In this document: piece by piece, positions 5,248 to 51,390 of the stretch
How the letters are laid out: the number at the start of each line of letters is the position of its first letter
How positions within the stretch are numbered: position 1 is the first letter of the stretch
DNA from: a virus
Reading direction: 5' to 3' (one strand)
DNA: 58,077 nucleotides
IMG/VR virus record: IMGVR_UViG_3300035034_002703
Location: 1 to 58,077 of that record
The notes under the pieces: generated by a model
Seen by the model: the letters and a program-made list of their open reading frames with translations, nothing else
What the model was told of the DNA's origin: nothing
Databases searched by the model: none
Translations under genes and position numbers: made by a program

Positions 5248-5598
5248 GTGGCAACCCCTCTAAAAGACAGACCGCCTCTGGCGAGATATCTATCAGAGGA
5301 GATGAGTCGCTACGAGAGGAGTACAAGCGAGCTTGCGAAAGCGGCTGGGGTAGCTCCCCAAGTCGTCGAGTTTCACAGGAATTTTGGCACTTCCGAATCA
5401 GAAGTAGATTACCTTATTTACCATCTGCGCAGGATGGGGTACCCGCCAAAATTCAAGTACGAAGACAAGGCCGTCTGGCAATGCAGGGTTCCACGCCCCA
5501 TCAAGGAGGCGTTGAAGGAGCATTGTGAGGAGCATGGTCTTACCTTATCAGAAGCAGTAACTTCCATATGGAAAGCATTCAGAAGGAGAATTTCATGA
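5248..5598 (+). CDS. Putative DNA-binding regulator (HTH plus RHH-like)
   Basis: 116 residues from a GTG start with weak initiation signals. Residues around STSELAKAAGVAPQVVEF look like a helix-turn-helix. The C-terminal part (RVPRPIKEALKEHCEEHGLT then LSEAVTSIWKAFRRR) looks like a ribbon-helix-helix fold. That is motif reading only. It ends in an ATGA overlap with the acidic alphaCTD-like gene, so the two are probably translated together and may act together. Confidence 0.55.
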   Translation: MATPLKDRPPLARYLSEEMSRYERSTSELAKAAGVAPQVVEFHRNFGTSESEVDYLIYHLRRMGYPPKFKYEDKAVWQCRVPRPIKEALKEHCEEHGLTLSEAVTSIWKAFRRRIS

Positions 5599-6551
5599 AA
5601 GCGAAAATCGACCTTTTCGATTTTCTGAGCGATGAAAACGCAAAGACTCTTGTCGAGCGGGCCAAAGAGAATCGCATGCCCCCCTTGGCATACGCGATGA
5701 TCCTGCTCGATACTTATCTCGAATCGGGGAGCAAGCTTGAAAAAGCTAAGGAGGAGGCCCCCGAGCAGGAAGAAGCCCCTGAACCCGAGCAGGAAGAAGA
5801 AGAGCCTGAAGAGGTTTCTGAACCCGAGCGGGAAGAAGAGCCTGAGCCTGAGCCTGAAGAAGAGGGGTCCGAGGGGGGGGAAGAGCCTGAACCAAAGCGA
5901 GAGGGAACGCCCATGCAGGCGCTTGATCTCCCCACTCGTGGTCAGAATGCGCTTGTGGCTCACGGCGTCGGCTACGTCGATGAGATCGAGGACATGACTC
6001 GCGAAGAGCTTTTCAAGGTGCCCAACATCGGCAAGAAGACGATGGAGCGCATGCTTGAGATCTTTGAAGAGCGTGGCATCGAACTCAGAGACCCCACCAA
6101 AGCAGAAGAGGTTGTTGAGGAGGCTGAGGAGTCTCCTGAGGATCTCGCCAAGCATATCATGGAGATGGACCCAACTCGCGATAACGTGGTGCTGGTGGCT
6201 CGTATGTGGTGCCAAGAGACCAAGCAAGAGCGCGAAGAGGCCATCAAGCTGATGCGCGAAGAGGCTTCGTTCTCTCCGGGCAAACCCGACACCTTCAAAG
6301 GTGCTCTGGTTGCTCTCGCCAACAACCTTCCAATCACTGAAGATCAGATCTCTGACGTCTATGCTATCGCCAATCGTCTCGGTGAGACGAAAAAGCATGC
6401 TGCCCAAGAGAGGCCGCAAGCCATGGCTGGCAAGGACTTGAGAGACCTCACTTACGGGGAGGCCAACCAGCTTATTTCGGAGATGAGTCAGGAGACTGAT
6501 TCTGGAGAAGACTTCTTCAATGACCTTGACGAAGGTTTCTTCGATGAGTAA
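5595..6551 (+). CDS. Acidic protein with RNA polymerase alphaCTD-like domain
   Basis: 318 residues from ATG 5595 (AAGGAG seven bases upstream, ATGA overlap). A short helical head is followed by a Glu/Pro-rich linker (residues about 55-100, repeated EEEPEP). Residues about 107-165 read LDLPTRGQNALVAHGV then VPNIGKKTMERMLEIF, which aligns with the C-terminal domain of bacterial RNA polymerase alpha (LELTVRSANCL, TPNLGKKSL). The DNA-contact residues R265, N268, G296 and K298 of E. coli are kept; S299 is Thr. A further acidic helical region follows. AlphaCTD-like helix-hairpin-helix domains also occur in unrelated proteins, so a link to transcription is inference, strengthened by the phage's own RNA polymerase. 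Confidence 0.75.
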   Translation: MKAKIDLFDFLSDENAKTLVERAKENRMPPLAYAMILLDTYLESGSKLEKAKEEAPEQEEAPEPEQEEEEPEEVSEPEREEEPEPEPEEEGSEGGEEPEPKREGTPMQALDLPTRGQNALVAHGVGYVDEIEDMTREELFKVPNIGKKTMERMLEIFEERGIELRDPTKAEEVVEEAEESPEDLAKHIMEMDPTRDNVVLVARMWCQETKQEREEAIKLMREEASFSPGKPDTFKGALVALANNLPITEDQISDVYAIANRLGETKKHAAQERPQAMAGKDLRDLTYGEANQLISEMSQETDSGEDFFNDLDEGFFDE

Positions 6552-23783: not shown

Positions 23784-23889
23784 TCTACTCTCCATTTTTT
23801 TTGGAGTTAAATTTCTGGGCTTAAGCACCTAGATAGAGTCATCTGGTCTAGCACCCAACCCTCTGAGATTTACTTGCCGGGGCTACGCA

Positions 23890-23958: not shown

Positions 23959-23960
23959 TA

Positions 23961-24197
23961 TCACCCGTACATGTTGATAATGTGGTCGATATACCCCAAA
24001 AGTATGTCGAGACAGTTCTGGGGTACGTTTCGACGACTTCTAGCTTCGTCGTCTGGATGGCCCACACATTGGATGATTGCGCCATCCTCGTGGGTGAGGA
24101 TTAAGATGTAACCCCACTCGAACTTCTTCTTCATGGATTCGCCATTATGCTCGAATCCTTTTTGAATGATTTTGTCTTCAAAATAAGATACGTCCAC
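23961..24197 (-). CDS. Small hypothetical protein
   Basis: 78 residues from GTG 24197, chosen because AAGGAGG lies five bases upstream; a GTG ten codons earlier has no such site. The sequence is MDVSYFEDKIIQKGFEHNGE, then GYILILTHEDGAIIQCVGHP and DILLGYIDHIINMYG. The middle looks like a two-strand beta hairpin. No family recognised. First gene of the leftward block. Confidence 0.6.
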   Translation of the reverse strand: MDVSYFEDKIIQKGFEHNGESMKKKFEWGYILILTHEDGAIIQCVGHPDDEARSRRNVPQNCLDILLGYIDHIINMYG

Positions 24198-24211
24198 AAA
24201 AACCTCCTTGA

Positions 24212-24268
24212 AGATATTTCCCTTCACTATAATTATGCCCGATTTACCCCCCTAAATTTAGCTACTTG
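24212..24268. repeat. Promoter-like direct repeat, copy 2
   Basis: Second copy of the 57-base element of 23890-23946. Leftward it has CATAAT at 24232-24237, about 35 bases before the GTG at 24197. Rightward it has TATAAT near 24227, about 95 bases before the gene at 24324. It may drive both strands from one intergenic region. Confidence 0.6.
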
Positions 24269-26049: not shown

Positions 26050-27204
26050 ATGAACAGAAAATTCGACCCGAGCAAGGCCCAGATTGGCCCACACGCCAAT
26101 AGAGGCTCCCGTCTACCCGAATACTCCACCCCCGGAGATTTGCCGTCAATCGATGACGGTTACGAAGACCCGAGTGATTTTGAAAAGACAGCCTACGATG
26201 AGGATGACCTCTCTCTCGATTTTAGCGATATCGAGATGGACAAAGAGGCCCTGAAGACTCGTAGCCCGAACTTCGACACCACCACGATGCCTACGATGCC
26301 CGAGGCATCACCCAACGCAAGGCGTCCAAACGACTGGGGAGATACCGACACAAACCCCCATTCCGCCCCTGCGGACACCAAGGGGATGATCAAAAATCGC
26401 ATCAAGCGCCTCAAAGAAAATCAGGTGCGAGGTCAGGAAAAAGAGTTCTTAAGCAGAGAGAATGAGGCAGATAAAAACGAAAGAGAAAGCTTTAAGGCAG
26501 TCTCCTCCAAGGTCGACAGACATTCTAAAATGGATGGCACTGGCGAGTATGCCGACTCTGGTCCATTTCTGTCGAAGCGAGCAGGCCATCACATCCTCGA
26601 TGTCTTGGAAGATGAGGACGCCAACCCGATTCGCCTGATGATTGCGCTCGACCAAGAGTACGAAGATGAGTGGTATGACTGGGAGCGTGAGACAATCGTT
26701 CAAACGGCAGAACAAGACGGCGTAGAGATTGCCCTTATCAATCAGTACAAGATTATGGCACTCAAGGTGGTTAAGAATTCAGACGAATTCTTCGAAAACT
26801 GGAGAGCCTTTGAAAAAGTATGCGTATCATTCACAGGTCGTCTGCCTGATTGGGGGCATGTTCAAGAGGTCTCTACGCACGATATTGCGGCAGCGGTTGC
26901 TCTTACTCGTCATTATGTTAGAGAGGAGAGGTTCTCCGACGAAGTAAAAGCTTATATTGCTGCCGCCGTTCTTCGTGATGGTTATGTAAAGCTGCCTCCC
27001 GAGCTTTCTTTTGCAAAGGCACCATTTCTAAAAGAACTCTCGCGTGCTACCGATGAAGATGTAATGGAGATGCGCGAAAGAGTGCAGGCAGTACTTGATG
27101 GTGGTGACGATGAAGAATTAGAACCTGAAGATCATATCCAGTATCTTAGACTGCTACGTGTTCAATATCACGTTCATGATAAATTAAATGAAGTGTCACA
27201 ATGA
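26050..27204 (+). CDS. Hypothetical head-region protein
   Basis: 384 residues. The first 180 are polar and disordered-looking, with K-x-A sites (FEKTAYDED, DKEALKTRS, SKRAGHHIL). The rest is helical and folded-looking (DEWYDWERETIVQTAEQDGV, AYIAAAVLRDGYVKLPPEL). It precedes and overlaps the portal gene as ATGA, a place often held by small terminase, scaffold or portal-associated genes. No motif decides among these. Confidence 0.6.
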   Translation: MNRKFDPSKAQIGPHANRGSRLPEYSTPGDLPSIDDGYEDPSDFEKTAYDEDDLSLDFSDIEMDKEALKTRSPNFDTTTMPTMPEASPNARRPNDWGDTDTNPHSAPADTKGMIKNRIKRLKENQVRGQEKEFLSRENEADKNERESFKAVSSKVDRHSKMDGTGEYADSGPFLSKRAGHHILDVLEDEDANPIRLMIALDQEYEDEWYDWERETIVQTAEQDGVEIALINQYKIMALKVVKNSDEFFENWRAFEKVCVSFTGRLPDWGHVQEVSTHDIAAAVALTRHYVREERFSDEVKAYIAAAVLRDGYVKLPPELSFAKAPFLKELSRATDEDVMEMRERVQAVLDGGDDEELEPEDHIQYLRLLRVQYHVHDKLNEVSQ

Positions 27205-29477
27205 GTGCAAACGGCGCAAATATTCCATCTAGTCCCCTCTCTATGCAGAGGCAGCAATATCCTGATCCATTCTTGGATATTGCGAGCACAAAGCTTCCCA
27301 AGACGATGCGGAAGCTTTTTGAGATGTGCTATATCTTTGGCACAACTCATCCTCAGATCTCTCCCATTGTCAGAAAGCTTGCCAAATACCCGATCACAAA
27401 TGTCATTGTGAACGTGGATAATAAGCAGGACTCTCTGAAGAAAAAATGGGAAGATGTCCTTGAAAATCACATGGACATCTACCAGATCGCAGAGGGGGTT
27501 GGGCTTGATTTTTTCGGATACGGAAATGCTTTTGTCACTGTGCACAGGCCGTTTATTCGCCTCTACAAGTGCAAAAGCTGCAAGACCGATCATGTGGCCG
27601 GTCAGGTGAAATACTTTATTCGTGGCAAAGAATTTCACGCCAAATGCCCCGAATGCAAAAGAAAGGTCAAGCTTGAGCCTCGTGACGAGCCTCACGACTC
27701 GATTGAAGATCTGTCGGTGGTTCGCCTCGATCCTGCCAACATGTACGTCGACAGAAACGAGCTTACCAACCACGCGACTTACTACTACAACGTACCGCGT
27801 GAGCTTAGAAAAGATGTCACCAAAAACAACCCGAACCGCGAGCTTATCGACTCTACTCCTCTTCCTTACGTGCAGGCTGCACTCAAGGGTAAGAAGGCAA
27901 AGATTCGCTTCAGAAAGGGCAAGGTGCTGCACCTTTTTGAGTCGTCTCTGAGTGGTAAATTTATGGGCTGGGGCATGCCGATTATCATGCCTGCCCTTAA
28001 AGACGCGTACCTTAACCAGATTTATAAAAAAGCAGACGAGTCTGCCGCAAACGAGCGTGCACTGCCTGCTAGGTTTGTCTTTCCTCAGCCTACCGGCGAA
28101 AGTCCGCTTCGAACGATTTCGCTGTCTCGTTTTACGAAGTTTTTGACGAAATCACTCAAGCGTTGGCGCTACGACAAAAACGCTGTGATGCCTGTGCCAT
28201 TTCCTCTTGGGGTCGCCGAGCTTGGAGGTAACGCACAGCAGTTTAACACCGTGCAGATGCGCCAGATGCAGATCAAGGAGATTATCGGCGCGCTCGGAGT
28301 GCCGGAAGGATTTTTGTCTGACGGCATGACATGGAGTGGTGGTAGCGTCCAGTTGAGGATGCTCGAAAACATGCTCATGTCATACACAAGGTCACTTAAC
28401 CGCCTGTTGTGGTTTGTGACTGACCAAGCATCCAAAATCATCAACCTCCCCCCCTGTGAGGCAAAGTTCAAGCCGTTCAGGATGGCTGATGATGTGCAGA
28501 TGCTTCAAGTTCTGCTCCAGCTTGCCCAGTCGAAGAATGTCTCTTATAAGGAGATTCTCGACCGCATGGATCTTGATTGGGAAGACCAGCACAAGCAGGT
28601 TCGAAAAGAGACCAAGAAGATTCAGAAGGTCCAGATCGAAGAGGCTCTTGCTGAGTCGAAGATGACCTTGCAGGCGATGGCCATTCAGGCAGAAAGCCAG
28701 ATGCGCGGTCAAGGATACCAAGAGCTTAAAGAAGAGGTTAACCAGCACGCACAAGCTGCAATGGCTCAATTGTCAGGTCAAGGAAGCTACTTTGAGACTG
28801 ACGAACAGATGGATCAACAACAAGAGCAGCAGCAGCAAGAAGAATCTAAGATGGAAGAGCGCCAGCAAGAGGCTCAGGTTTCTCAAGAGGAAGCCAAGGC
28901 GAATAAGCTCAAAGCAGAGGGTAGAAAAACCGACGAGCATGCTGACTATTATGCCGATCAAGACGATGCTAGAGAGGCCAGAGAGCAGGTCACTAGCACT
29001 ATTGAGCGATATGCCGATCAGATTATGCAGCTGCCGCCGCAAAAGCAAAGCGAAGTTCTCGGTCAACTTGCAAGCCAAGCCCCCACGCTCGCCAAGCGCG
29101 TTGTAGATGAATTGCGCAGAAGAGAGATGGGTGAAGACGGCGAGCTTCCAGAAGAGGCTGGCGCACCAAAATCGGCAAAAGAAAAAGAGAAGGATGACGA
29201 AACCATTGCCGATAAGGATGACCCAGCAGCCATCGTAAACAAGATGCGCCAAGAGCTAAGTAGCGCCAAAGCGATGGCTCAAAAACTAATGATGCTTGAG
29301 CCCGGAAAGAGAAAGCAGGTAATCAATTACCTGCTTAAAACGGACGGGGCTCTGGCTCTTCAAATTTCACGAGTTCTTAAAAAGGATATGGGCATTGCGA
29401 GTGCCGGTGGAGGATCTTCGAAGAACAAGGTCAACATGAAGCCCGCACCAAAACAAAAGCCCCCACGAGGTAAGTAA
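27201..29477 (+). CDS. Portal protein with zinc-ribbon insert
   Basis: 758 residues. Core portal features: FFGYGNAFVTVHRPF, GKVLHLFESSLSGKFMGWGM, AYLNQIYKKADESAANERAL, and the long helical stem and wing region with GALGVPEGFLSDGMTWSGGS. An insert near residues 115-155 has CKSCK and, after a hairpin, CPECKRK, a CxxC...CxxC zinc ribbon not typical of portals. The C-terminal third is a Gln/Glu-rich coil (QQQEQQQQEESKMEERQQEA). Twelve copies would form the DNA channel at one vertex. Confidence 0.85.
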   Translation: MSANGANIPSSPLSMQRQQYPDPFLDIASTKLPKTMRKLFEMCYIFGTTHPQISPIVRKLAKYPITNVIVNVDNKQDSLKKKWEDVLENHMDIYQIAEGVGLDFFGYGNAFVTVHRPFIRLYKCKSCKTDHVAGQVKYFIRGKEFHAKCPECKRKVKLEPRDEPHDSIEDLSVVRLDPANMYVDRNELTNHATYYYNVPRELRKDVTKNNPNRELIDSTPLPYVQAALKGKKAKIRFRKGKVLHLFESSLSGKFMGWGMPIIMPALKDAYLNQIYKKADESAANERALPARFVFPQPTGESPLRTISLSRFTKFLTKSLKRWRYDKNAVMPVPFPLGVAELGGNAQQFNTVQMRQMQIKEIIGALGVPEGFLSDGMTWSGGSVQLRMLENMLMSYTRSLNRLLWFVTDQASKIINLPPCEAKFKPFRMADDVQMLQVLLQLAQSKNVSYKEILDRMDLDWEDQHKQVRKETKKIQKVQIEEALAESKMTLQAMAIQAESQMRGQGYQELKEEVNQHAQAAMAQLSGQGSYFETDEQMDQQQEQQQQEESKMEERQQEAQVSQEEAKANKLKAEGRKTDEHADYYADQDDAREAREQVTSTIERYADQIMQLPPQKQSEVLGQLASQAPTLAKRVVDELRRREMGEDGELPEEAGAPKSAKEKEKDDETIADKDDPAAIVNKMRQELSSAKAMAQKLMMLEPGKRKQVINYLLKTDGALALQISRVLKKDMGIASAGGGSSKNKVNMKPAPKQKPPRGK

Positions 29478-30378: not shown

Positions 30379-30872
30379 GGGCCGGGGATATCCTCTTCTC
30401 AAAGCCCAAAAGTAGCGGCCTCCTGAGAAAAATAACAGTTGAAATGCCTCAGGGCGGGGACCCCTTATCTCATGTGGCCATCGTTGGGCCTAATCGCCAA
30501 TTTGTGGTGGAGGCCTCTATGACCAAGGGGGTAAACAAGATTCCCCTTAAGAAGTGGGTGGCTAAAAACACCTTCGACGCAAGGCGCGTGCAAGCCCCCT
30601 CTACGGCCAGACGTAAAGCAGCAAAGCAGGCCATGGCCATGGTGGGTAAAGAATACAGCCTCAGGGCAGGGGCTCGTGCCATCGCAACGCCAAGAGCGAA
30701 GCCCAAAAACACCAAAAAGATAGTCAAGAAGATCAAGAACTTGCCAGCACTATTTTGCTCTACGCTTATTGTCGGTTCTTTCGATGATGTAGATTTTGGG
30801 ATTAACAAGCATCCATCTGATATACTGCCGGTAGATTTGAAGCGTAGCCCTAAACTAAAGAAAATATCATGA
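30345..30872 (+). CDS. YiiX-like permuted NlpC/P60 peptidase or amidase
   Basis: 175 residues, N-terminal signature MLVKIAKASSL. Then RAGDILFSKPKSSGLLRKIT, the putative His in PLSHVAIVGPNRQFVVEAS, GVNKIPLKKWV, and near the end the putative Cys in LPALFCSTLIVGSFDD. The His before Cys order is that of permuted (YiiX/YaeF-type) NlpC/P60 enzymes, which cleave peptides, amides or lipids at membranes. With an RNA polymerase gene next and the virion tag, it might be delivered into the cell; that is inference. ATGA overlap with the polymerase gene. Confidence 0.7.
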   Translation: MLVKIAKASSLRAGDILFSKPKSSGLLRKITVEMPQGGDPLSHVAIVGPNRQFVVEASMTKGVNKIPLKKWVAKNTFDARRVQAPSTARRKAAKQAMAMVGKEYSLRAGARAIATPRAKPKNTKKIVKKIKNLPALFCSTLIVGSFDDVDFGINKHPSDILPVDLKRSPKLKKIS

Positions 30873-33800
30873 GCCTTGCATTTGATTCTCACAAAAAGAT
30901 GCTGCAGAAACTCGAACGTTATATTCGAGATACTGTAGAGATTAAGAAGGGAGATAGAGAGCTTAAGGTTGTCAGCGTAGATCTCCCCGAGACCGCGACG
31001 AGCGATAATCTGGATGCTCAGAAAAAGGCCAAGGTCACAGGTCTATCTCACACTGTTCCCATTAAGGCGACCATCAAGCTGCTTGAGAATGGCAAACAGG
31101 TCGACAAGGCCAAGGTGACGATCTTTTCTGTACCTCAGGTGACCAAGCGCGGCACTTATGTGGTCGAGGGTAACGAGTACACCTTCCCCCTACAGAAGAG
31201 GCTTATTCCGGGCGTCTACACCCAGAAGAAAAAAGACAACAGCATCTCCTCGTGGATCAACTCCTCGAAGGGCATCAACTACAACGTGACTCTTCGAAAT
31301 GAGAAGGGTGACTTTGTGTTGGAGGCTGGGGGCAGCACCATCAATCTGTATGCACTGCTCTTGGGTCTTGGTGTCCAAAAGAAAACGATCAGAAAGGTGT
31401 GGGGGCAAGAGGTCTACAATCAGAATAAGAATGCCTACGGTGCAGGTAATCCTCAGCGTGCCCTAGAGAAGCTCTACGATAAGCTTCACTACAAAAATGA
31501 CGCCGAGGCTACTAGCAAAGACATCCCCGGCCTTCGTAAATGGATTCTCGACTACTTCGACAGCAAAAGTGAGCTGGATGGCGAGAACGTCGAGCTTACG
31601 CTGGGTAGAGTCGAAAAGAAGGTCAGCCCTAAGCTGTTTCTTCAATGCACTCAAAAGATCTTGGCGATCTCTCGTGGCGATAAGAGTGAGGACAACAAAG
31701 AGTCTCTCGTCCACAACCATGTCGCCGATATTTCTGACTTTGTCTCTGAGCGTCTCAATGACTACCAGTACAGAGGCAAGGTGCAGAGAAATATCAAGAT
31801 TCGCATCAAGAAAAATGACAAAGTAAAAGACATCGTCGGTAAAAAGGCATTCCAAGACGGTCTGATTTCCACATTCACACAGACCACCCTTGCGAGGTTG
31901 CCGAAGCAGAACAACCCGATGGACCAGATGTCTAACTACTCGGAAATCACCGTCATGGGTGAGGGTGGTATCCAGTCTCATCACGCCGTGACAAGGGATG
32001 TTCGGGCGGTAGACCCGACTCACCTTGCCTTCTTGGACCCCTTCCATACCCCGGAAGGATCGAACATCGGCACCACCTTGCATCTTGCTCTTGGTGCGAA
32101 AAAGAAGGGAAAGAATCTTGTAACTAAGCTTTACGACGTAAAGAAGAAAAAAGAAGTAGAACTTAACCCGCGTGAGGTTTTTAAGTCGCACGTCACTTTT
32201 ACTGAGTACTGGGATAAGCAGAAAAAGAAGCTAAAAAGGGACGATGACGGCACCATCAAGGTGACGCACAGAGGTGAGATCAAGCGCGTATCGCCAAGAA
32301 AGGTAGAGTACGTGATGCGCAAAGCCACCGACATGGTCGATGTCAATACGCTTGGCGTGCCCTTTTTGTCTCACAACAACGGCACGCGTGTCATGACTGC
32401 CGCAAAGATGCAGTCTCAGGCAAAGCCGCTTAAGAACCGCGAGAAGCCGATGATTCAGTCGGCTGCAAGCGAAGACACCAACACCACAGTCGAGGATGTT
32501 GTAGGGCGTCACTCTGTCCCCAAGTCTCCTGTAAATGGCACGGTGCACAGGGTCTATAAGAAGAAAGTTGTCATCAAAGATAACAAAGGCAAAAAGCATA
32601 CGGTTGAGATCCCCAGAAACTTCTGGCTCAACGACAACAACTTTCAAGATGCAGAGTCGACTGTAAAGAAGGGTGACAAGGTCAAAAAGGGTCAGCCGAT
32701 CGCTGACAACAACTACACCAAAGACGGCACGCTGGCGCTGGGTACCAACCTTCGCACGGCCTACGTCGCGTACAAGGGATACAACCACGAAGACGGCGTT
32801 GTGATCAGTGAGTCGGCATCCGAGAAGCTGACCTCGATGCATGCTTATCAAAAAGAAATCCCGATCAACGAGAACGAGACGACCAAGAAGACCAAATACA
32901 AGGCCTACTTTCCGACACGCTTCGACAACGAGAAGCTCGATAAGCTCGACAATGACGGGGTTATCAAGGAGGGGTCCAAAGTAAAACCGGGAGACCCTCT
33001 TGTTGTAAAGATGAGAAAGGTCGAAGAAGACACCGTCTCAAAGAAGGTGCAAAATATCTCTCGCCTTCTTACCACTGACTACAGGGACACGAGCTATACG
33101 TGGGACAAGAATGCGATCGGCGAGGTTGCCGAGGTCCACAAAAGAAGAAAAGATGTCCTCGTTGTCATCAAGACTGAAGAGAAGGGCAAAGTCGGCGATA
33201 AGCTGGTCGGAAGGTACGGAAACAAATCGACCATCACCAAAATTGTCCCCGATGACGAAGCGCCGCACGATGAGGATGGCAACAAGATGGACATCCTTAT
33301 CAACCCGAACACGGTGCCAAGCCGCATGAATATTGGTCAGATCTTAGAGACCACAGCTTCTCGTGTGGCTGAAAAGACAGGCAAGCCGTATGTGGCTAAG
33401 CCTTTCGGGGAAAATGCTACAGACAAAATTCAAAAAGACCTAAAGCAGCACGGCCTTAAAGATCACGGAACGCTTCACGATCCTGTAGAAAAGGCCGACA
33501 TTGGCGGTGTTCTTCATGGTAAGCAGTACATCATGAAGCTTGAGCATCAGGTCGAAAAGAAGCTGTCTGTGCGTGGCGCTGGTCCGGGGGAAAGATATTC
33601 TTCGAGCGGACAGCCTGCAAGCGGTGGCGAAGGCGGCGGTCGCGCCATTGGCCTGGGGCCGATGTACGCGATGCTTGCTCACGGCGCAGACGAAAACCTA
33701 AAAGAGATGTACACCTTCAAGGGTGACAAAAACTTCGAGGCTTGGCGTGCAATCGAGAAAGGGTACGCCATGCCTCCGATTGAGATGCCTCATTCGTCAA

Positions 33801-36800
33801 GGCGTTTTGTTTCTATGCTTCGAGGCATGGGGGTTAACCTCAACCAAAACAAGACCAGCGTCCAGATGCAACCCTTTCTCGACAAGGACATCAAAAAGAT
33901 CTCAAACGGAGAGATCAAAGACGCCACCGCGATCAGAGCTAAAGACCTCAAAGAAGAGAGCGGAGGGCTGTTTGACCTCAGTAAGACTGGCGGTGTCGTT
34001 GGCGATAAGTGGACTCACATCAAGCTCGAAGAGCCGATGCCTCACCCAACCTTCGAGAAATCTATCAAGGATGTGCTGCACCTTACGCGCAAGGACTTCA
34101 GCTCGATCATGGATTCCAAAAAGGGCGTGATTGATGGAAAGTTTGTCAAGCCGGACAAGCCCGGAGCAAAGCTTCGTGGCGAGGCAATCAGGTCGCTGCT
34201 AAAAGGCGTGGATGTAGACAAACGCCTGAAAGAGATTGAGAAAGAAGCTCCCGGAAAAAAGGGTACCGAGCTTAACAAGCTTCATCGTGAGGGGCGCGTT
34301 CTTAAAAACTTCAAAGAGCAAAAGATCGGCCTTGACGAGATGGTGGTAGAGAATGTCCCTGTCATCCCGCCCAAATTCAGGCCCATCATTGAGCTTCCTA
34401 ATGGCGATCTTACGGTGGCAGACGTCAACGAACACTACCGTTCTGTTATCCTGATGAACGACCATCTCAAAGAGTTCAAGAAGCAAGATGGGATGGAAGA
34501 AGAGTACGAGCGGGCCGCATCTCACCTGTATAAGGGTGTTAAGGGGACGATGGGCTTTGACAAGGGGCTTGTGGATAACCCGAACGTGCGTGGTCTGGGG
34601 CAGACAATTGCTGGCGCTCAGCCCAAGAGCGGCCACTATCTGTCCAAGACTCTCAAGCGCAGACAAGAGACCAGTGGTACTGCTGTTGTTGGGCCGGAAC
34701 CCAAGCTGGATATGGATCAGATTGGCATTCCTGAGGAGATGGCTTGGAAGATGTTCAAGCCGCATATCATCAGGGAGCTTAAGTCCATGGGCATCCCCAA
34801 AGTTAAGGCTGAGGGGGAAATCGAGAAGCGCACCGACATGGGTAAAAAGGCGCTCGAAAACGCCATGAAGAGCAAGATGGTCATGGCTAACCGCGCACCA
34901 ACTTTGCACCGCTGGTCGATTATGGCGTTCAAGCCTCAGCTGGTTGCAGGTAGTGCTGTGCAGCTACCTGTGGAGGTCTTGAGTGGCTACAACGCAGATT
35001 TCGACGGCGATACTTTTGGCATCCATGTCACGGCGACACCCGAGGCGACCGAAGAAGCCAAGAGCATGATGCCGTCGAACAACCTGTATCTTTCGGGGTA
35101 CCAACGAAAGGTGATGGCACCGGAGCTTTCTCAGGAGTACATTCTTGGCCTCTACAAGCTGACTAAAAAGAAAAAGGGCAGCAAGGTTGAAGAGAAGTTC
35201 AAGTCGGTCAAGGATGCAGCCAAGGCGCTCGAAGATAGAAAAATTAAGCATGATGCCATCATTAAAATTTCTGGCGTAGGAAAGACCACGCCGGGGCGTG
35301 CGCTGGCGATGAGCTATGTGCCTAAAAAGCACCGCAAATTCGACACCGAGCTTTCAAAAAAGGAAGTTCGCAATATGCTCGTCAAGGTTGAAAAGAGTGA
35401 GGGCAAAAAAGAGTACATGAAGATGATGAAGGGGTGGAAAGACCTTGGCAGAAAGTACGCCTACCTTCTGGGGTCGTCCTTCCTTCTGTCGGACATCAAG
35501 CCCCTAGAAGGCGAGCGCAAAAAGCTTTACGAGCAGGCTGACCGTGTGGCCAAGAAGGTTCGCAAAGGGAAAAACAAAAAGAAGCGCGAGGAAAACCTCG
35601 TCAAGATCTATGACAAGGTTGACCAGAAAATCATGAGCCAGACCAAGAAGCTCAGGCAAAATGATGCTGGCAAGGACAACAACCTGTCAGACTTGGTCAA
35701 CTCGGGAGCAAGAGGAAACCCTCATCAGGTCAAGCAGATTGTGGGTACGCTCGGGTTGATGATGGACCATAAACAGGAGGTTATTCCTGAGCCTGTGCGG
35801 GGTAACTATTCGTCCGGTCTCTCAAGCTCTGATTTCTGGGCACACTCCTACGCCCAGAGAAAGGGCATGATCGACAAATCGCAATCAGTTAGCGGTCCCG
35901 GTATGCTCTCAAAAGAGCTTACTAACTCGGCGACCCGCATCAAGATCGCAAAGCGTGACTGCAAGACCCAAAACGGACGCTATGAGAAGGTAGACAAGCA
36001 TCTGATCGACCGCGTGCTCTCAAAGCCTGTGGCTGGGCAGTCCAGAAATACGCTGATCGACGACGATGTGCTGGCTAAGATTCAGAAGCGTGGCGTCAAA
36101 AAGGTTCAGATCCGCAGCATCTTTACCTGTGAGGCAGATGCAGGTATTTGCGCGATGTGCTTTGGACACGATGAGACAGGCCATTTTCCGAGCGTGGGCA
36201 AGAATATCGGCATCTCCGAGATTCAGGCATTGACCGAGAGATCGGTCCAGTTGCCTATGCAGAGCTTCCACACAGGTGGTGCGGCCTCAGCGGAGTCTGG
36301 ACTTGCCAGTGCGTTCGATCGTGCGCTTCAGATCTTTCGTATGCCGGAAAACGTTCAGGGTAAGGCTACGCTTGCAGAAAAATCAGGCACCGTACAAAGA
36401 ATCACAAGCTCTGGGTACGGTGGCAAGATTGTGGTGATTAACGGCAAAGAGCACAAAATCCCCAAAGGCCTCGACCTCAAGGTCAAGATGGGTAGCCGCG
36501 TCAAAAAGGGTGACCCAATTTCAGAGGGAATTGTGAAGCCTCAAGACCTTCTTGAGCAGAAAAATATCGAATCTGTGCAAAATAAGATGCGTGACGATTT
36601 GCACCAGACATACGGATCTGCTGGGGTTAATCTCCACAAAAGAACTTTCGAGGTTGCTGTGAAGTCCATCACCGATCAGGTTCGTGTGACGGACCCCGGT
36701 GACTGTGGTAAATTTGTTCCGGGTGATTATACAACCGACGCAAAAGTCAAGGCTTGGAACAAAAAACACCCAACGAAGCGGCCTATTAAGTTTACCCACA

Positions 36801-36997
36801 TCCTCCCCGGATCGCTACAAGCGCCGCATAAAACGGATGATTGGGCACAACGTATGGCTCTTGGTAGAATTAAAAAGACCCTGCGCGAAGGCGCTGGACA
36901 AGGCTTTAAGAGTGATCGCAAGAAGGGCACACCCTTTGCAGATCTTGCTCTTGGGCCGGGAACTCCAATTAAGAAACCCGGACAGGAAGGACGATGA
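30869..36997 (+). CDS. Single-chain beta-beta' RNA polymerase
   Basis: 2042 residues. The beta part comes first: QNNPMDQMSNYSEITVMG and HTPEGSNIG (about 345-400), GYNHEDGVVISE (about 637), GDKLVGRYGNKSTITKI (about 776), ERYSSSGQPASGGEGGG. The beta' part follows: ISNGEIKDATAI, RAPTLHRWSIMAFKPQ, YNADFDGDTFGIHV with the Mg-binding NADFDGD at 1375-1381, GARGNPHQVKQIVG, SDFWAHSYAQRKGMIDKSQS, zinc cysteines CEADAGICAMC, and a trigger-helix region LTERSVQLPMQSFHTGG. E. coli beta plus beta' total about 2750 residues. No alpha, omega or sigma gene is seen. It sits between portal and terminase genes, which suggests a late or virion polymerase. Confidence 0.97.
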   Translation: MSLAFDSHKKMLQKLERYIRDTVEIKKGDRELKVVSVDLPETATSDNLDAQKKAKVTGLSHTVPIKATIKLLENGKQVDKAKVTIFSVPQVTKRGTYVVEGNEYTFPLQKRLIPGVYTQKKKDNSISSWINSSKGINYNVTLRNEKGDFVLEAGGSTINLYALLLGLGVQKKTIRKVWGQEVYNQNKNAYGAGNPQRALEKLYDKLHYKNDAEATSKDIPGLRKWILDYFDSKSELDGENVELTLGRVEKKVSPKLFLQCTQKILAISRGDKSEDNKESLVHNHVADISDFVSERLNDYQYRGKVQRNIKIRIKKNDKVKDIVGKKAFQDGLISTFTQTTLARLPKQNNPMDQMSNYSEITVMGEGGIQSHHAVTRDVRAVDPTHLAFLDPFHTPEGSNIGTTLHLALGAKKKGKNLVTKLYDVKKKKEVELNPREVFKSHVTFTEYWDKQKKKLKRDDDGTIKVTHRGEIKRVSPRKVEYVMRKATDMVDVNTLGVPFLSHNNGTRVMTAAKMQSQAKPLKNREKPMIQSAASEDTNTTVEDVVGRHSVPKSPVNGTVHRVYKKKVVIKDNKGKKHTVEIPRNFWLNDNNFQDAESTVKKGDKVKKGQPIADNNYTKDGTLALGTNLRTAYVAYKGYNHEDGVVISESASEKLTSMHAYQKEIPINENETTKKTKYKAYFPTRFDNEKLDKLDNDGVIKEGSKVKPGDPLVVKMRKVEEDTVSKKVQNISRLLTTDYRDTSYTWDKNAIGEVAEVHKRRKDVLVVIKTEEKGKVGDKLVGRYGNKSTITKIVPDDEAPHDEDGNKMDILINPNTVPSRMNIGQILETTASRVAEKTGKPYVAKPFGENATDKIQKDLKQHGLKDHGTLHDPVEKADIGGVLHGKQYIMKLEHQVEKKLSVRGAGPGERYSSSGQPASGGEGGGRAIGLGPMYAMLAHGADENLKEMYTFKGDKNFEAWRAIEKGYAMPPIEMPHSSRRFVSMLRGMGVNLNQNKTSVQMQPFLDKDIKKISNGEIKDATAIRAKDLKEESGGLFDLSKTGGVVGDKWTHIKLEEPMPHPTFEKSIKDVLHLTRKDFSSIMDSKKGVIDGKFVKPDKPGAKLRGEAIRSLLKGVDVDKRLKEIEKEAPGKKGTELNKLHREGRVLKNFKEQKIGLDEMVVENVPVIPPKFRPIIELPNGDLTVADVNEHYRSVILMNDHLKEFKKQDGMEEEYERAASHLYKGVKGTMGFDKGLVDNPNVRGLGQTIAGAQPKSGHYLSKTLKRRQETSGTAVVGPEPKLDMDQIGIPEEMAWKMFKPHIIRELKSMGIPKVKAEGEIEKRTDMGKKALENAMKSKMVMANRAPTLHRWSIMAFKPQLVAGSAVQLPVEVLSGYNADFDGDTFGIHVTATPEATEEAKSMMPSNNLYLSGYQRKVMAPELSQEYILGLYKLTKKKKGSKVEEKFKSVKDAAKALEDRKIKHDAIIKISGVGKTTPGRALAMSYVPKKHRKFDTELSKKEVRNMLVKVEKSEGKKEYMKMMKGWKDLGRKYAYLLGSSFLLSDIKPLEGERKKLYEQADRVAKKVRKGKNKKKREENLVKIYDKVDQKIMSQTKKLRQNDAGKDNNLSDLVNSGARGNPHQVKQIVGTLGLMMDHKQEVIPEPVRGNYSSGLSSSDFWAHSYAQRKGMIDKSQSVSGPGMLSKELTNSATRIKIAKRDCKTQNGRYEKVDKHLIDRVLSKPVAGQSRNTLIDDDVLAKIQKRGVKKVQIRSIFTCEADAGICAMCFGHDETGHFPSVGKNIGISEIQALTERSVQLPMQSFHTGGAASAESGLASAFDRALQIFRMPENVQGKATLAEKSGTVQRITSSGYGGKIVVINGKEHKIPKGLDLKVKMGSRVKKGDPISEGIVKPQDLLEQKNIESVQNKMRDDLHQTYGSAGVNLHKRTFEVAVKSITDQVRVTDPGDCGKFVPGDYTTDAKVKAWNKKHPTKRPIKFTHILPGSLQAPHKTDDWAQRMALGRIKKTLREGAGQGFKSDRKKGTPFADLALGPGTPIKKPGQEGR

Positions 36998-39148: not shown

Positions 39149-39568
39149 ATGAGTATGATTGTAAAGCAAGCAGGATTTAGCTGGAAAGATATGGCGAGTG
39201 ATGCCGGTAAGAGTCTGGCAAAAAATCGTGGTCTTGGTGGTGCTGCTGCTGGTGCTGCGGTCGGCGGCGGTATTAACGCGCTACGCACTCACAAGAAGAA
39301 TAAAAACAAGCCTCAAAACCAAAAGAAGAGTCTTCTTGGAGGGGCTGCTAAAGGTGCTCTAGCTGGCGGTGCTATTGGTGGTGGTCTTGGTGCAGCTTCT
39401 GGGCACAAAAGCGGAAAGAATTCCGTCAACAAGCTTAAGAAATACACCAAGGCAATCCAGTCAGGAAAGCTTAAGGGCAACAAACTTAAGACTGTTCAAA
39501 ATGCTGGCCAGAAGCAGGTGAATCACCTGAGCGGAATTCTCGGCAAAAACATGAGTAAGTATAAGTGA
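39149..39568 (+). CDS. Tagged glycine-zipper protein, paralogue 2 (MSMIVKQAGF)
   Basis: 139 residues. MSMIVKQAGFSWKDMASDA, then GGAAAGAAVGGGINALRTHK, KNKNKPQNQKKSLLGGAAKG and ALAGGAIGGGLGAASGHKSG, then a basic helical tail with LGKNMSKYK. Same plan as the gene before it. Overlaps the terminase gene start as a 4-base overlap. Confidence 0.75.
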   Translation: MSMIVKQAGFSWKDMASDAGKSLAKNRGLGGAAAGAAVGGGINALRTHKKNKNKPQNQKKSLLGGAAKGALAGGAIGGGLGAASGHKSGKNSVNKLKKYTKAIQSGKLKGNKLKTVQNAGQKQVNHLSGILGKNMSKYK

Positions 39569-41130
39569 GTACCACCCTTTCAAACTGGATTAGGAATGCG
39601 ATCTACCTAGATTCTAGGACTCGCTTCCAGTTCAATGGCCGGATGTGGGTTCCGGCCATTTTTGATACTGCCAACAACAGGCGTGTGCTCAAGATGAGCC
39701 GTCAGGTTGGTAAGTCTAGCAGTGGTACGGCTGAAGAGACGACGCGGTGTGTTTTATGGGACCACTTTAACGTCCTGTATGTAGCGCCCGAGCAAGACCA
39801 AGCCAGAAAGTACAGCCAAGACAAAGTAAAGCCGACCATCAAAAACTCACCCATCATCAACAGAATGATGGGGACGTACGATAACGTCCACGAGAAAGAG
39901 TTTGCGAACGGCTCAAAGCTGTACATGAAGTACGCCAAGCACAACCCCGACAGCTGTCGTGGTATTACGTGCGACATGGTGCATTACGACGAGGTCCAAG
40001 ATATGGATCTCGATGATATTGCGCCGATTATCGACGAGTCTTTGTTCACCTCGTCATGGAAGCTTCGTCTCTACACAGGCACGCCCAAGTCTTTCGAAAA
40101 CCCAATCGAGAGAAAGCTGTGGGCTAAGAGCGATAAGCGTGAGTGGTTGATGCGCTGCTCTCACCACAGCCCCGCCAAGTGGATCAATGTTGGTATTCGC
40201 AACATTGGCAAGCATGGACCTATCTGTCACCACTGTGGCAACCTACTCGATGTCGACGACGGTAGGTGGGTTCGTCACAACAAAAATGGCGACATCGCTG
40301 GCTTTCACGTCAACCAGCTTCACTGCAAGATCTCTCATGCAGACCTAAAAGATGGAAAATGGATTCCCAATCAGGATTCTTGGGATGAAATTATCAACAA
40401 GCTCGAAGAATATCCTCGTGGACAGTTTCTAAACGAGGTTCTTGGAGAGTCTGCGGATACAAGCGATAAACCCCTGACTGAGGCTATGCTCGCGAATACG
40501 TCGCTGCCAGAAATCAGGATTATGCCTGAGCCGACCGCGAGAATGATGAAGACTCCTCGCTTTGCGGGGATTGACTGGGGTCACGGAGAAGCTGCCACGG
40601 TCTTAGCGATCGGCCAGTTCAACCCTGAAGACCCTAGTAGGTTTTGCTACGTCTACTTCCAGAAGTGGGAAGGCTCAGATACGTCGCCTGCGATCTGCAT
40701 CCCTGAGATTATGGCGGCTCTCAAAAAGTACAAGGTGGCACGCGTTCACTGCGACTATGGTGGTGGGTTCGGAATGAACCACTTGCTTCATGAGCAGTAC
40801 GGCAAGAACAAGGTGACGACGAACTACTGGTCGAACTCGGCAACCTCTGCTGATCAGACTTGGAGCGTCAAAGATTCCATCCCCAGACTTACGCTCAACA
40901 AGTCAAACAAGATCGCCAACTACATCCAGCTTATCAGGCGTCAAAAAATCCAGTTTCCTAACTGGGATGACTTTTGCCCCAAGTACTCTGATGACTTCCT
41001 CAACATCCGGCGTGAGGAGGACAGAAATGAGAACATCAAGTACGTCAAGGCCGGGAATGACGATGGCCTTCACGCTGCGCTGTACGCCTATGTGATTGCC
41101 GTAGCGGCCAGTCACTCAAACGGGTTGTAA
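39565..41130 (+). CDS. terL: Terminase large subunit
   Basis: 521 residues. ATPase part: Walker A-like MSRQVGKSSSGTAEE near residue 45, VLYVAPEQDQARKYS, Walker B MVHYDEVQDMD near 139, and YTGTPKSFENP (coupling motif). Nuclease part: GIDWGHGEAATVL near 335, VHCDYGGGFGMN, and NDDGLHAALYAYV with the last acidic ligands. A CxxC-containing loop (PICHHCGNL) lies between, perhaps binding zinc. It packages DNA through the portal. Ends overlapping the leftward gene at 41112 by 19 bases. Confidence 0.92.
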   Translation: MSTTLSNWIRNAIYLDSRTRFQFNGRMWVPAIFDTANNRRVLKMSRQVGKSSSGTAEETTRCVLWDHFNVLYVAPEQDQARKYSQDKVKPTIKNSPIINRMMGTYDNVHEKEFANGSKLYMKYAKHNPDSCRGITCDMVHYDEVQDMDLDDIAPIIDESLFTSSWKLRLYTGTPKSFENPIERKLWAKSDKREWLMRCSHHSPAKWINVGIRNIGKHGPICHHCGNLLDVDDGRWVRHNKNGDIAGFHVNQLHCKISHADLKDGKWIPNQDSWDEIINKLEEYPRGQFLNEVLGESADTSDKPLTEAMLANTSLPEIRIMPEPTARMMKTPRFAGIDWGHGEAATVLAIGQFNPEDPSRFCYVYFQKWEGSDTSPAICIPEIMAALKKYKVARVHCDYGGGFGMNHLLHEQYGKNKVTTNYWSNSATSADQTWSVKDSIPRLTLNKSNKIANYIQLIRRQKIQFPNWDDFCPKYSDDFLNIRREEDRNENIKYVKAGNDDGLHAALYAYVIAVAASHSNGL

Positions 41131-41297: not shown

Positions 41298-42109
41298 AGA
41301 TCGAATGTGTGCTCGTAACTTTCAGGATCTTTGTCTGACTCACCAGAATCATCTACTGGGTCGTAACCCTCGATATCTTCGACATCCTCAGCAGTCTCAG
41401 AAGGCCAGAAGATCTCTTGTTCGAACTCTTCGGGGATCTTACCTTCGCCGCCACTGTTAAGATCGGCAAGCATCTTAACGCCATCAAGCGCTCTTTTTTG
41501 CCACTTCAATGCGAGGTCGTCACCGTGAAGCCCGTACTTTCTTACCTCTTCTGAGCGAAAAAAGGCGCGGTACATCATGTGCTTTACGATATCGCTCTTA
41601 TCGATGCTAACGTCACCGCCAGACTCGAAAATGCGATACTCACTTCGCCACTTTGCTGGCACAGGCGGCACAACGTCATCGAGATTCCAGCCCTTTGTCT
41701 CGTAAAATCGGGCGAAGTCGTAGTTGTTTAGCGTCTCCGTATCGCAAAAAAAGTCGCGATACATCAAGATAACCTCTTCATCGAAGTTATCCTTGAACTT
41801 ATTGTACAGCACATCCTGAATGATGTCGGGAGTGCATCTCTCAATCAGAAGCTGATTTGCAATCCTTCTGATAGGCTCACATTTGTACATGGCGATTGCT
41901 TTCGCAACCTTGGGGTCATTCTTTTTGTGGTGCCTGACAAGACGCAAGAGCCCCGTCTCTTCGAGGATTTCTTTTTTATCCTCGAAAGTTTCAAGCAAGT
42001 ACCTTTTGAATTGCAAGATAGGCTCAGTTACTTCGGGGTGTGTCGAATCGACAAACGCCTGAAACAAGGCCCATCTCCAATTAGGCTGTTTGGGTACTCT
42101 TTTTCTCAT
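41294..42109 (-). CDS. Hypothetical helical protein
   Basis: 271 residues. Mostly helical (WALFQAFVDSTHPEVTEPIL, RRIANQLLIERCTPDIIQDV), with an acidic C-terminal tail (SETAEDVEDIEGYDPVDDSG). Overlaps the leftward gene before it by 4 bases. Next to the large terminase but on the other strand. Small terminase or head-assembly roles are possible; no motif supports either. Confidence 0.6.
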   Translation of the reverse strand: MRKRVPKQPNWRWALFQAFVDSTHPEVTEPILQFKRYLLETFEDKKEILEETGLLRLVRHHKKNDPKVAKAIAMYKCEPIRRIANQLLIERCTPDIIQDVLYNKFKDNFDEEVILMYRDFFCDTETLNNYDFARFYETKGWNLDDVVPPVPAKWRSEYRIFESGGDVSIDKSDIVKHMMYRAFFRSEEVRKYGLHGDDLALKWQKRALDGVKMLADLNSGGEGKIPEEFEQEIFWPSETAEDVEDIEGYDPVDDSGESDKDPESYEHTFDL

Positions 42110-44100
42110 TTCGAATCCAATTCAATTTGCAGATTCTGCAGCGTGTACTTAGCCTTACCAATACCCCTGAGGGCCTTGGCCACCGACTTCTCATCAATCG
42201 CCCTCTCTCCTTGGCGAGCAGCCATAAGGAGTTTGGCGAGCCTGTCCTCGACCTCCTGAAAAAGAGGCAGAGACTTAGCAAGACTCTCAAGCGTGTCATC
42301 GCTTACAAACTGGAGCGACAGAATAGCGTCGACCGTTTTGGGGTCTTCCATCGGCTCGGGGTTCTTAGACTTCAAGACATCATCTGTCGCCTCAAGTGTC
42401 TCTTCTGCGACTTTTCTGATCTCACTTACGTAGTAGTCTGCGTTGGGAATCTCAGTTTTTTGTTCTGCAAGCTTGACCGTCTCGCCCATCGGCATCAGGC
42501 CGTAAAGCTTCATGCTGTCACTATTTTTAAGGGCGCTTGCCTTTTCCAGAACGTAATCATCGGCCCCGTAAGATGCGAGCTTAACCCTCATCTCGCTGGC
42601 GTCCATGTTATTGAACGTGACAAATCCGCGCTCGGTTTTACCGTCTAGCGAGTAGCGGCTGGCATTTTTGTGAAGTGTAGCCACAGGGCGCTTATCTTCG
42701 GCAATCTTGCTGATATTGCCACGGTCGACGAACTCAGTGTGCTTGCCAATCTCAACAAATCTGTAGCTTCCCGGCACATAGTAAGCAGGCGCATCAAAGC
42801 TCATACCCCGGTGGTGCTTACCAATTCGTCTCGGCTTTCTTAGTTGGGGTAGGATAACCAGATAGCACATCTCCATGGTGGCAGGCACATAGACTTTGAG
42901 GGTCGGCGGCTCTCCCGGCATCATAATGACCTGCTTGACCTCAAATACTGGCGTCGTCACAGGAAGGGTGGTCTCGTCCAGAAACACACCCTTTTTTCCT
43001 GCCTCTAATACACTTCTGCCAGCGGGGTGACTGAAGCAATCTCTATCGCAGGAGTTGCCCACAAAAGCCTTGCCGCGATCAAAAGCTCCGTCTTCAGCAA
43101 TAACCATCTGCCGTTTGATTTCGGTGCCATCGAAGGCGATACCATTGCAAGAGACCATTGCTTTGACGCCATTTCCGTCAGGCGTCACCACGCGGTAGTA
43201 GCCGCCTTGCTCGATGGGAGATGGCGTGCACCCAAGAGATGCGACATCGACACTTTTGAGGGTCGGAATGTCACGGATCATTGCCCATCCTCGGGCTTTG
43301 ATTTGATCCATGATTGCCGTGTAATCGGTTTGCAGGCTGTCTTTCAAAGCCTTCGGGTGCATCACTTTCGTGACGCCGTTTGCGAAGACAATCGCAAATC
43401 TTCCATCTCGCCTAAAAGTGACGTGAGCCACAGTCGGGGATTTCCCACCATCCTCTTCTAATCCAGTAGATAGGTTTTGGAGCGAATCTCTGAGTCCGTA
43501 CGTCTGCGCAAAATCGTTAATACCATTGTAGGTACCAAGGATACTCATAAGGTGGCGAATCTCTGCAGGCCTTTTAACGACCTCGGAAAGAATGCCAGAC
43601 CCAGCGCGACTCATTGAGCGAGGCGCACCGTACGAAGACGGATACCCCGAATATTCAAGAGGCGTAATATCACCTGTATGGTCGCCGATGTAGCGATCAG
43701 CCGGTGGCACTTGACCATACTCACTGTCGTCATCGACCTTGAACATCCTTCCGGGCTGTTGCCCATCAATCGCCGACCTTAGAGATTGATTGTTCAGATG
43801 CTGAAATCTTCCGTCTGCAAACAAGACGTCCAGCCTATCGAGCTTAGCCTTGTCGCTGATTTCGTCCGGGCGAATCGTAAACAGGATTGCGGCTTTTTTT
43901 CCCAGAATGACGTACCCAAAAGCAGTTTTCTCCTCAGGATCAACCTTGTCGAAAACAAGCTTTGACTGAGACAGGTCCACGTAGGGGTGCTCGCTCTTAA
44001 GAGCTTTTAGAACCTCTGCGGGCCACTGCTTATAATTTTCAGGAATGCGCGTTTGGGCGCATTTTTCCATAGGCTTGTACTTTAGTTTGTACATCATCAT
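42106..44100 (-). CDS. Large head/virion-region protein with K-x-A motifs
   Basis: About 664 residues; several in-frame starts (GTG 44106, ATG 44100, 44097, 44094), with GAGG placed best for the third ATG. The N-terminal 140 residues include LVFDKVDPEEKTAFGYVILG. The middle has beta-rich repeats (HVTFRRDGRFAIVFANGVTK, VFEVKQVIMMPGEPPTLKVY). The C-terminal part is helical and carries SKIAE, HKNAS, VKLAS, VKLAE and RKVAE. No family recognised; context suggests a structural protein. Confidence 0.65.
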   Translation of the reverse strand: MMMYKLKYKPMEKCAQTRIPENYKQWPAEVLKALKSEHPYVDLSQSKLVFDKVDPEEKTAFGYVILGKKAAILFTIRPDEISDKAKLDRLDVLFADGRFQHLNNQSLRSAIDGQQPGRMFKVDDDSEYGQVPPADRYIGDHTGDITPLEYSGYPSSYGAPRSMSRAGSGILSEVVKRPAEIRHLMSILGTYNGINDFAQTYGLRDSLQNLSTGLEEDGGKSPTVAHVTFRRDGRFAIVFANGVTKVMHPKALKDSLQTDYTAIMDQIKARGWAMIRDIPTLKSVDVASLGCTPSPIEQGGYYRVVTPDGNGVKAMVSCNGIAFDGTEIKRQMVIAEDGAFDRGKAFVGNSCDRDCFSHPAGRSVLEAGKKGVFLDETTLPVTTPVFEVKQVIMMPGEPPTLKVYVPATMEMCYLVILPQLRKPRRIGKHHRGMSFDAPAYYVPGSYRFVEIGKHTEFVDRGNISKIAEDKRPVATLHKNASRYSLDGKTERGFVTFNNMDASEMRVKLASYGADDYVLEKASALKNSDSMKLYGLMPMGETVKLAEQKTEIPNADYYVSEIRKVAEETLEATDDVLKSKNPEPMEDPKTVDAILSLQFVSDDTLESLAKSLPLFQEVEDRLAKLLMAARQGERAIDEKSVAKALRGIGKAKYTLQNLQIELDSK

Positions 44101-44102
44101 CC

Positions 44103-50400: not shown

Positions 50401-51390
50401 ATGTCGAATTTTTATGACGCACAGCTGAACGAAGTCTTTCTTCAGCTGCTAGACGACCCGGAGATGCACAAAGAAGCTGAGCAGCGTGCATCTGAGTACC
50501 TGAAGGTCCAGATCTATGAAGATAGCTTCATGGAGCGGATTCTTCCGGCTACCCCGATTTCGCCAGCTCAGTGCGATAGAACGGTCGATTCGCCGAACTA
50601 CGTGAAAGTCATTGATAAGGAATTCGCCGACGTTGGTGCGGTGACCCTTGGCTTCCGTGGTCGAAGTGACTACCAGTTTGTCGAAACTGACCGCTATCAG
50701 GTCAACTTCTTCAAAATTGAATCGGAAGAGTACGAGGTCACCGAGGGTGAACTTCGTGGCATGCGCCAGCCGCTGCAAAACCTGATTCGTCACCACATCG
50801 CGTACTACATTCGCAAAAAGATGGACGAAGCGTTCATCGGTCTTTGCGAAAAAGCCGTGAACGGCGATCCCAGCGTTCAGGTCATCGACGAGCGTAGCTC
50901 CCCCGATGGTGCCAACGGTGGTAGTGGTAGTGGTGCTCAAATCATCACCCCCGAGCTTATCGTTAAGCTGCGAAACATCCTTGATGGTCGCAACACTAAC
51001 GGTAGGTACATGGAAGCTGCCACGCTTCTGATGAGCCGCTCGATGTTCAACTACGTTTCGACGTGGATTCAGGGCCAGAAAGAGGGTGGATCGCACTCTC
51101 CGGGTCTGTCGAGTGGACTGGGTACCGAGTTCTGGCGTGACGGATATCAGTACGACAAGCTTGACAACCTTCGTGTTGTCACGACCGTCAAATCTGATCT
51201 CGTCCCCGAAAACGTCGTGTACGTCTTCGCGCCGCCCGAGCTTATCGGTCATCACTTCACCTTCAATGACGATCGTTTCTCGATTCTTCGAGAGCACGAC
51301 CGCATGAGATGGAAAGGATGGCGTACCTTCGGTTGCGCAATCGGTAACGCCTACTCGGTGGGCAAACTGATTCTGGAACCGATCGTCTGA
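50401..51390 (+). CDS. Major capsid protein, HK97-fold type
   Basis: 329 residues. Features fit an HK97-like capsid protein: a short N-terminal arm, FMERILPATPISPAQCDRTV, the E-loop/spine region (KIESEEYEVTEGELRGMRQP, HIAYYIRKKMDEAFIGLCEK), a glycine-rich loop (GANGGSGSGAQIITPELIVK), and a P-domain/A-domain end (NVVYVFAPPELIGHHFTFND, TFGCAIGNAYSVGKLILEPI). The N-terminus includes HKEAEQRAS, one more K-x-A, 25 residues in, possibly a processing site. A strong terminator follows, as is usual for a highly expressed capsid gene. Confidence 0.78.
   Translation: MSNFYDAQLNEVFLQLLDDPEMHKEAEQRASEYLKVQIYEDSFMERILPATPISPAQCDRTVDSPNYVKVIDKEFADVGAVTLGFRGRSDYQFVETDRYQVNFFKIESEEYEVTEGELRGMRQPLQNLIRHHIAYYIRKKMDEAFIGLCEKAVNGDPSVQVIDERSSPDGANGGSGSGAQIITPELIVKLRNILDGRNTNGRYMEAATLLMSRSMFNYVSTWIQGQKEGGSHSPGLSSGLGTEFWRDGYQYDKLDNLRVVTTVKSDLVPENVVYVFAPPELIGHHFTFNDDRFSILREHDRMRWKGWRTFGCAIGNAYSVGKLILEPIV

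Follow-up and report, generated by a model that had tools for sequence, protein, structure and literature searches.

A probable single-chain β–β′ RNA polymerase in a clade of tailed phages

In cellular RNA polymerases (RNAPs), α is taken to be needed for the assembly of the large subunits. What, then, is encoded by a phage gene that appears to hold both large subunits in one reading frame, and how might its product assemble, recognise promoters and serve an infection? The gene lies at 30869..36997 (+) in a 58,077-bp IMG/VR virus record, the whole of which was analysed and is referred to here as the window. A sequence-only reading had described one uninterrupted frame with β motifs followed by β′ motifs. 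The ORF does begin with ATG and stays open for 2,042 codons with no internal stop (2042 aa plus stop), and every motif quoted in that reading is found in the chain.

Profile searches recognise RNAP families in both halves, as the sequence-only reading had anticipated. Pfam places Rpb2 domains 3, 6 and 7 (7 weakly) and then Rpb1 domains 1–5 on the one chain, and NCBIfam matches both rpoB (7e-89) and rpoC (1.6e-160), with scores far below the equivalog cut-offs, as befits a distant relative. The β′ half matches solved RNAPs at E 1e-104. E. coli β aligns up to residue 991 (β part, residues 1–991, 30869..33841, +) and E. coli β′ from residue 1008 (β′ part, residues 1008–2042, 33890..36994, +). The domain order and both barrels are those of the cellular two-barrel type, and the DxDGD Mg site, the barrel lysines, the bridge helix and the trigger-loop histidine are all present. 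On the plus strand these include β E641-D642 (E. coli E813-D814; 32789..32794), GDKLVGRYGNK with the catalytic lysines K778 and K786 (E. coli K1065, K1073; 33194..33226), NADFDGD with the Mg-binding aspartates D1377/D1379/D1381 (34991..35011) and the trigger-loop SFHTGG with H1801 (E. coli H936; 36263..36280). Across 112 phage RNAPs, the equivalents of D460/D462/D464, R425, D814, R1106, R780, G794 and E925 are identical in every member, among them the Mg-binding aspartates on which the earlier claim hung. K1065 (111), K1073 (110), H936 (111), Q929 (111) and R678 (108) are nearly invariant. From sequence and model, the gene almost certainly encodes a DNA-dependent RNAP of the cellular two-barrel type, with β and β′ as one polypeptide.

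The chain had also been described as about 700 residues shorter than E. coli β plus β′ and hence as possibly a reduced core. The arithmetic is right (1342 + 1407 − 2042 = 707) and a genuine domain has gone: the 32-residue, four-cysteine zinc-binding domain at the N-terminus of β′ (E. coli C70/C72/C85/C88), whose site falls at residues 1041–1042 (33989..33994, +), is absent from 112/112 phage RNAPs. The term is nonetheless overstated, because about 470 of the 707 residues correspond to four long E. coli segments (117, 112, 54 and 187 residues) absent here, so that the loss is mostly one of long E. coli-type insertions. The bridge helix, the trigger loop, both barrels and the second zinc site (C1698/C1754/C1761/C1764; 35960..36160, +) are retained, the cysteines of the last being kept in 108 of the 112. 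In the rifampicin pocket of the window's chain, Q513 is replaced by R, D516 by K, H526 by N, R529 by E and S531 by T, and rifampicin insensitivity is therefore predicted. Some single-chain relatives (L145, L150, L161, L163, L170, L178, L183, L185 and L196) carry insertions of 300–400 aa at three conserved β sites, near window residues 398, 630 and 787. LAGLIDADG or intein domains were detected in two of the three insertions tested, and the insertions thus look like inteins, some of them beside a catalytic lysine.

The two halves meet at residues ~992–1007 (33842..33889, +), in a hairpin some 15 residues long that is conserved and whose β′ side stands in for the first ~27 residues of E. coli β′. 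Its length varies little within the family, and fused bacterial enzymes have longer linkers. A structure model of residues 330–1528, covering both barrels and the junction and built with an alignment of 84 sequences (two database phages left out), folds confidently (pLDDT 89.9, pTM 0.81); the same prediction made from the single sequence was useless (pLDDT 34.6). Bacterial β chains are the closest folds (9fog_C, E 1.2e-49). In the model the junction forms two strands and a turn (block pLDDT 82–91), and the C-terminus of β passes through this tight hairpin into the N-terminus of β′. An artificial fusion of E. coli β and β′ reportedly remained functional, and a working weld is plausible on that ground. 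The chain might instead be cut after translation into β-like and β′-like parts, the working enzyme being multi-chain as in cells. Proteases process head proteins in many phages, and the split relatives described below presumably work with two or three chains, so that an unbroken backbone is sometimes dispensable. Such cleavage is nevertheless quite improbable, given that the hairpin at the junction is short and ordered, that a long flexible linker is absent, and that the clear fissions of relatives lie elsewhere (~501, 1092 and 1467) and not at 991–1008. An enzyme that works as one uncleaved chain is very probable.

The fusion is far from confined to the window. Three alignment queries, run against viral contigs, gave at least 81 distinct full single-chain RNAPs in IMG/VR (the window's included; a lower bound, with a few ending at a contig edge or late frameshift), of median length 2078 aa and mostly 2,000–2,150 aa. 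Alignment queries were required, since a single-sequence pattern search of the same kind of contigs gave no match. Among the matches listed, the nearest full single-chain relative is ~61% identical over ~1,990 columns. This breadth bears on whether the frame is an assembly artefact or bacterial contamination. Some public phage records are indeed contaminated with host rpoBC, and several phage-labelled records, such as L098 and L099, are actually bacterial rpoBC contigs. Given at least 81 distinct single-chain proteins on independent contigs, flanked by phage genes and set apart from bacteria in the tree, we reject artefact, chance or contamination as having a negligible probability. The converse mislabelling also occurs: L206, assigned to a Thermoguttaceae MAG from goat duodenum, is a 183-kb contig with an Arash-type phage RNAP and is probably a misbinned phage.

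Other relatives carry the same enzyme in pieces. In two-chain forms, including Salmonella phage Arash and Vibrio phage D69, β plus N-β′ (~1525 aa) is separated from C-β′ (~610 aa) at a site corresponding to residue ~1467 (35267..35290, +). Three-chain forms (~1130, 385 and 607 aa) are additionally cut at residues 1087–1104 (34127..34180, +); this is not the cellular boundary, because the first protein extends ~90 residues beyond it into β′. Two cases with "four" chains have an additional cut in β near residue 501–511. The β part is broken at that same place in Vibrio phage D181 (L004) and in L052; the two D181 pieces flank a homing endonuclease gene, and the near-identical D69 is unbroken. In contigs L153 and L154 a cut near residue 957–967, close to the β/β′ boundary and with gaps below 20 bp, may be a split, an intron or a sequencing error, and L158 has its phage RNAP in several ORFs with small gaps. 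A search of 50,697 deposited phage records found no one-chain member at the sensitivity used; the matches that spanned most of the query came from the split Vibrio phages, and Arash followed. The sequence-only reading was thus right about a one-chain RNAP in a tailed phage, which is backed by the domain order, the conserved residues, the related sequences, the trees and the confidently predicted fold, and it missed both the wide spread of the fusion and the re-split chains of cultured relatives.

The order of events can be read from the trees. Rooted on 18 bacterial rows (an outgroup made up of bacteria alone), the phage RNAPs form one clade with SH-aLRT 100, apart from bacteria. Its basal branches are single chains. 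The split forms sit deeper within it, their successive neighbours being the single-chain L171/L172/L182 and then L178. On a 38-row tree one state change suffices. A topology grouping all single chains against the split forms plus bacteria was rejected (AU p 0.0064). These trees come from short searches and contain long branches and several unsettled deep forks, and yet a single origin of the weld is independent of those forks, because one-, two- and three-chain forms all have it. The sequences therefore indicate one fusion, followed by later fissions away from the normal β/β′ boundary in the branch that holds the cultured phages.

How such a chain would assemble and find promoters is the next question. 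The α N-terminal domain (PF01193) was found in 0 of 53 related records, with controls positive in 13/14, and ω (PF01192) in 0 of 24, with controls positive in 14/14. The lack of σ and ω in the 58-kb window alone weighs little, because this record may be incomplete. The absence of these genes among relatives is consistent with the earlier suggestion of a core able to work without α and ω, and independence from host α and ω is probable. The weld may take over part of the α/ω job by holding the large halves together, and the chain would then assemble without host subunits.

Sigma factors are distributed unevenly. Sigma region 2 was detected in 15 of 17 split-RNAP genomes. Of the single-chain records, the first 13, which include five of 124–181 kb, had none, and 5 of 21 further ones scored over the cut-off; a profile of the split-clade σ had no match in the first set. 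A rule that one-chain phages lack σ was accordingly dropped. The window's clade shows no recognisable σ. The window does encode a candidate accessory factor at 5568..6551 (+), a protein with an RNAP α C-terminal domain (PF03118, residues 108–164). In the window and near relatives it measures 320–400 aa and keeps the equivalents of E. coli R265, N268 and G296, and it could bind AT-rich upstream DNA. Its versions in the window, L101, L102 and L104 have acidic linkers and a conserved tail, and the protein is mainly limited to the window's subclade. A motif search of intergenic 7-mers gave nothing but poly-A/T runs, and a search for a second, T7-type RNAP had no match, although its positive control gave none either. 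It is conceivable that the phage chain still recruits host α, ω or σ as a hybrid enzyme, since its β/β′ core resembles that of bacteria closely enough for alignment over the full length and the α-CTD protein, as well as the σ70 proteins of some relatives, could be read in that way. We consider this unlikely: the σ-contacting β′ clamp residues of E. coli (R275, R278, R293, E295) are not retained in the window's chain, the N-terminal zinc domain of β′ is missing from all 112 phage RNAPs compared, and phiKZ-type phage RNAPs function without α and ω (PMC7598289).

The surroundings of the gene bear on its role. An ATGA overlap of 4 bp links its start to the end of the gene before it; that gene encodes a permuted papain-like amidase (Peptidase C92; 30345..30872, +), for which only one further match was seen among the 80 loci listed in a later scan. 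The portal gene lies further 5′ (27201..29477, +), and in most relatives its homologs likewise precede the RNAP gene and share its strand: portal adjoins RNAP in 56 of the 80 loci listed, always in this arrangement and within 1.5 kb in 44. Downstream are the terminase large subunit (39565..41130, +), which scores 20.8 bits against PF03237 (cut-off 22) and higher against PF05876, and the major capsid protein (50401..51387, +), a homolog of Arash gp226 (E 3e-20). Late genes of the window match Arash gp222, gp226, gp233, gp234, gp236 and gp237, all annotated as structural or capsid proteins. The window also encodes a DNA polymerase III-type replicase, ribonucleotide reductase and PhoH, and Rfam and tRNA scans of it gave no matches. 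Two neighbouring features stand apart: a 666-aa protein at 42106–44106 (−), with homologs near terminase in most single-chain loci and no match to any family or solved structure, and a block of minus-strand ORFs at 21200–24230 with higher G+C and reversed skew, which looks like a variable insertion and had no homologs among the relatives compared.

In Arash virions, gp206 (β plus N-β′) is the top protein with 3516 spectra, exceeding the capsid protein, and gp216 (C-β′) has 1210; its authors mention either early transcription or carry-over (PMC10585845). Presence in the virion is not proof of packaging, because carry-over is possible and 116 proteins were detected in these virions (PMC10585845). 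Arash is moreover a two-chain relative, ~33% identical over the shared part. A packaged early-gene polymerase is favoured, because the RNAP gene lies 3′ of portal, the Arash enzyme is found in virions and the window's late genes match Arash structural proteins; by analogy with Arash, we lean slightly towards packaging. The enzyme would be made late, alongside portal, terminase and capsid proteins, packed in the head and carried out of it along with the ejected DNA, and would then transcribe the earliest phage genes without being inhibited by rifampicin. The main rival is a non-virion polymerase, made after infection to transcribe the middle and late genes, with early transcription left to host RNAP and the Arash virion signal being carry-over as its authors allow. 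Exactly one β′ locus per genome was found in 26/26 genomes, in contrast with the separate virion and non-virion enzymes of phiKZ-type phages (PMC7598289), and this fits the rival, under which the σ genes of the split clade could serve either polymerase. The lead of gp206 over the capsid protein and the location in a portal–terminase block rather than among replication genes both speak against it, and we regard it as a serious but less probable reading. Packaging therefore remains our preference. The whole explanation, of a one-chain RNAP with subunit-independent assembly, late synthesis, packaging and early transcription, is on balance likely. The most specific statement, a lone-chain cell-type RNAP without α, ω or classical σ, packed in the head and ancestral to the two-, three- and four-chain enzymes through fissions off the β/β′ boundary, is put forward tentatively.

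If a natural single chain replaces the α scaffold, a minimal cell-type RNAP encoded by one gene would become available for structural and in vitro use, as would a natural test of how small such an enzyme can get. Furthermore, the clade forms a natural series from one to two, three and four chains, which shows where the enzyme tolerates cuts, and its deep branch outside cellular life is of use to work on the origins of RNAP. With two-chain relatives already in culture (Salmonella phage Arash, Vibrio phage D69), these questions are open to laboratory tests today.

Several known systems resemble this enzyme in part. First of all, RNAPs of the phiKZ/AR9 type are also phage two-barrel enzymes without α and ω, with a virion form (PMC7598289, PMC13282480), but they comprise four to five or more polypeptides, are very divergent and come as two enzymes per phage; here there is one chain and one enzyme, and neither split β and β′ nor a virion and non-virion pair in the genome was found for the window's RNAP. 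Second, crAss-like and P23-45/YonO-type enzymes are likewise one phage-encoded chain with two barrels, and P23-45 has a virion form (PMC10770324); the crAss type escapes rpoB and rpoC profiles (PMC7481178), whereas the window's chain is recognised by both. Third, the yeast virus-like element proteins K2ORF6p/K2ORF7p have β fused to part of β′ with C-β′ separate, as in Arash (PMC6211774), but they are highly divergent and from an unrelated host, and the resemblance is in layout only. Fourth, the fused rpoBC of Helicobacter and Omnitrophota also holds β and β′ in one ORF; these proteins are bacterial, 2607–2896 aa long with a longer linker, and nest among bacteria in the tree, so that homology with the Helicobacter fusion is rejected and the fusions are independent. 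The Omnitrophota lineage (L269, L277), with its 2607-aa ORF, is independent of Helicobacter as well as of the phages.

The closest cultured systems are Arash and Vibrio D69/D148/D181, which share a homologous RNAP (~33% identical over the shared part for Arash), the same β–β′ weld and a capsid homolog; in Arash the portal (gp204, so annotated) also adjoins the RNAP. They differ in having two chains (1525 and 606 aa), with β also interrupted in D181, and in the presence of a σ gene in Arash and D69. Finally, the mReC phages of Weinheimer and Aylward (2020) are tailed phages with contigs above 200 kb, portal and terminase nearby and a deep RNAP clade with NADxDGD (PMC7481178). Our clade is likely to be mReC, the comparison being made by description. 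The cores of both are alignable to cellular enzymes and form a clade apart from cells, in our tree apart from bacteria, and the chain is recognised by rpoB and rpoC profiles (NCBIfam and Pfam standing in for COG0085/0086), exceeds 800 aa and has NADxDGD. That the fusion is merely an unremarked property of these published phages is a reasonably likely reading, which the fit of the single-chain set to the mReC description supports; on the other side, the paper's text describes two subunits and uses "fused" for crAssphage only (PMC7481178), and its capsid family PF07068 matches neither the window's capsid protein nor Arash gp226. In the open-access papers searched, we found no description of a β–β′ fusion for these phages. 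What is already known, then, comprises phage two-barrel RNAPs, the mReC phages, cellular rpoBC fusions and the fusion of the yeast element.
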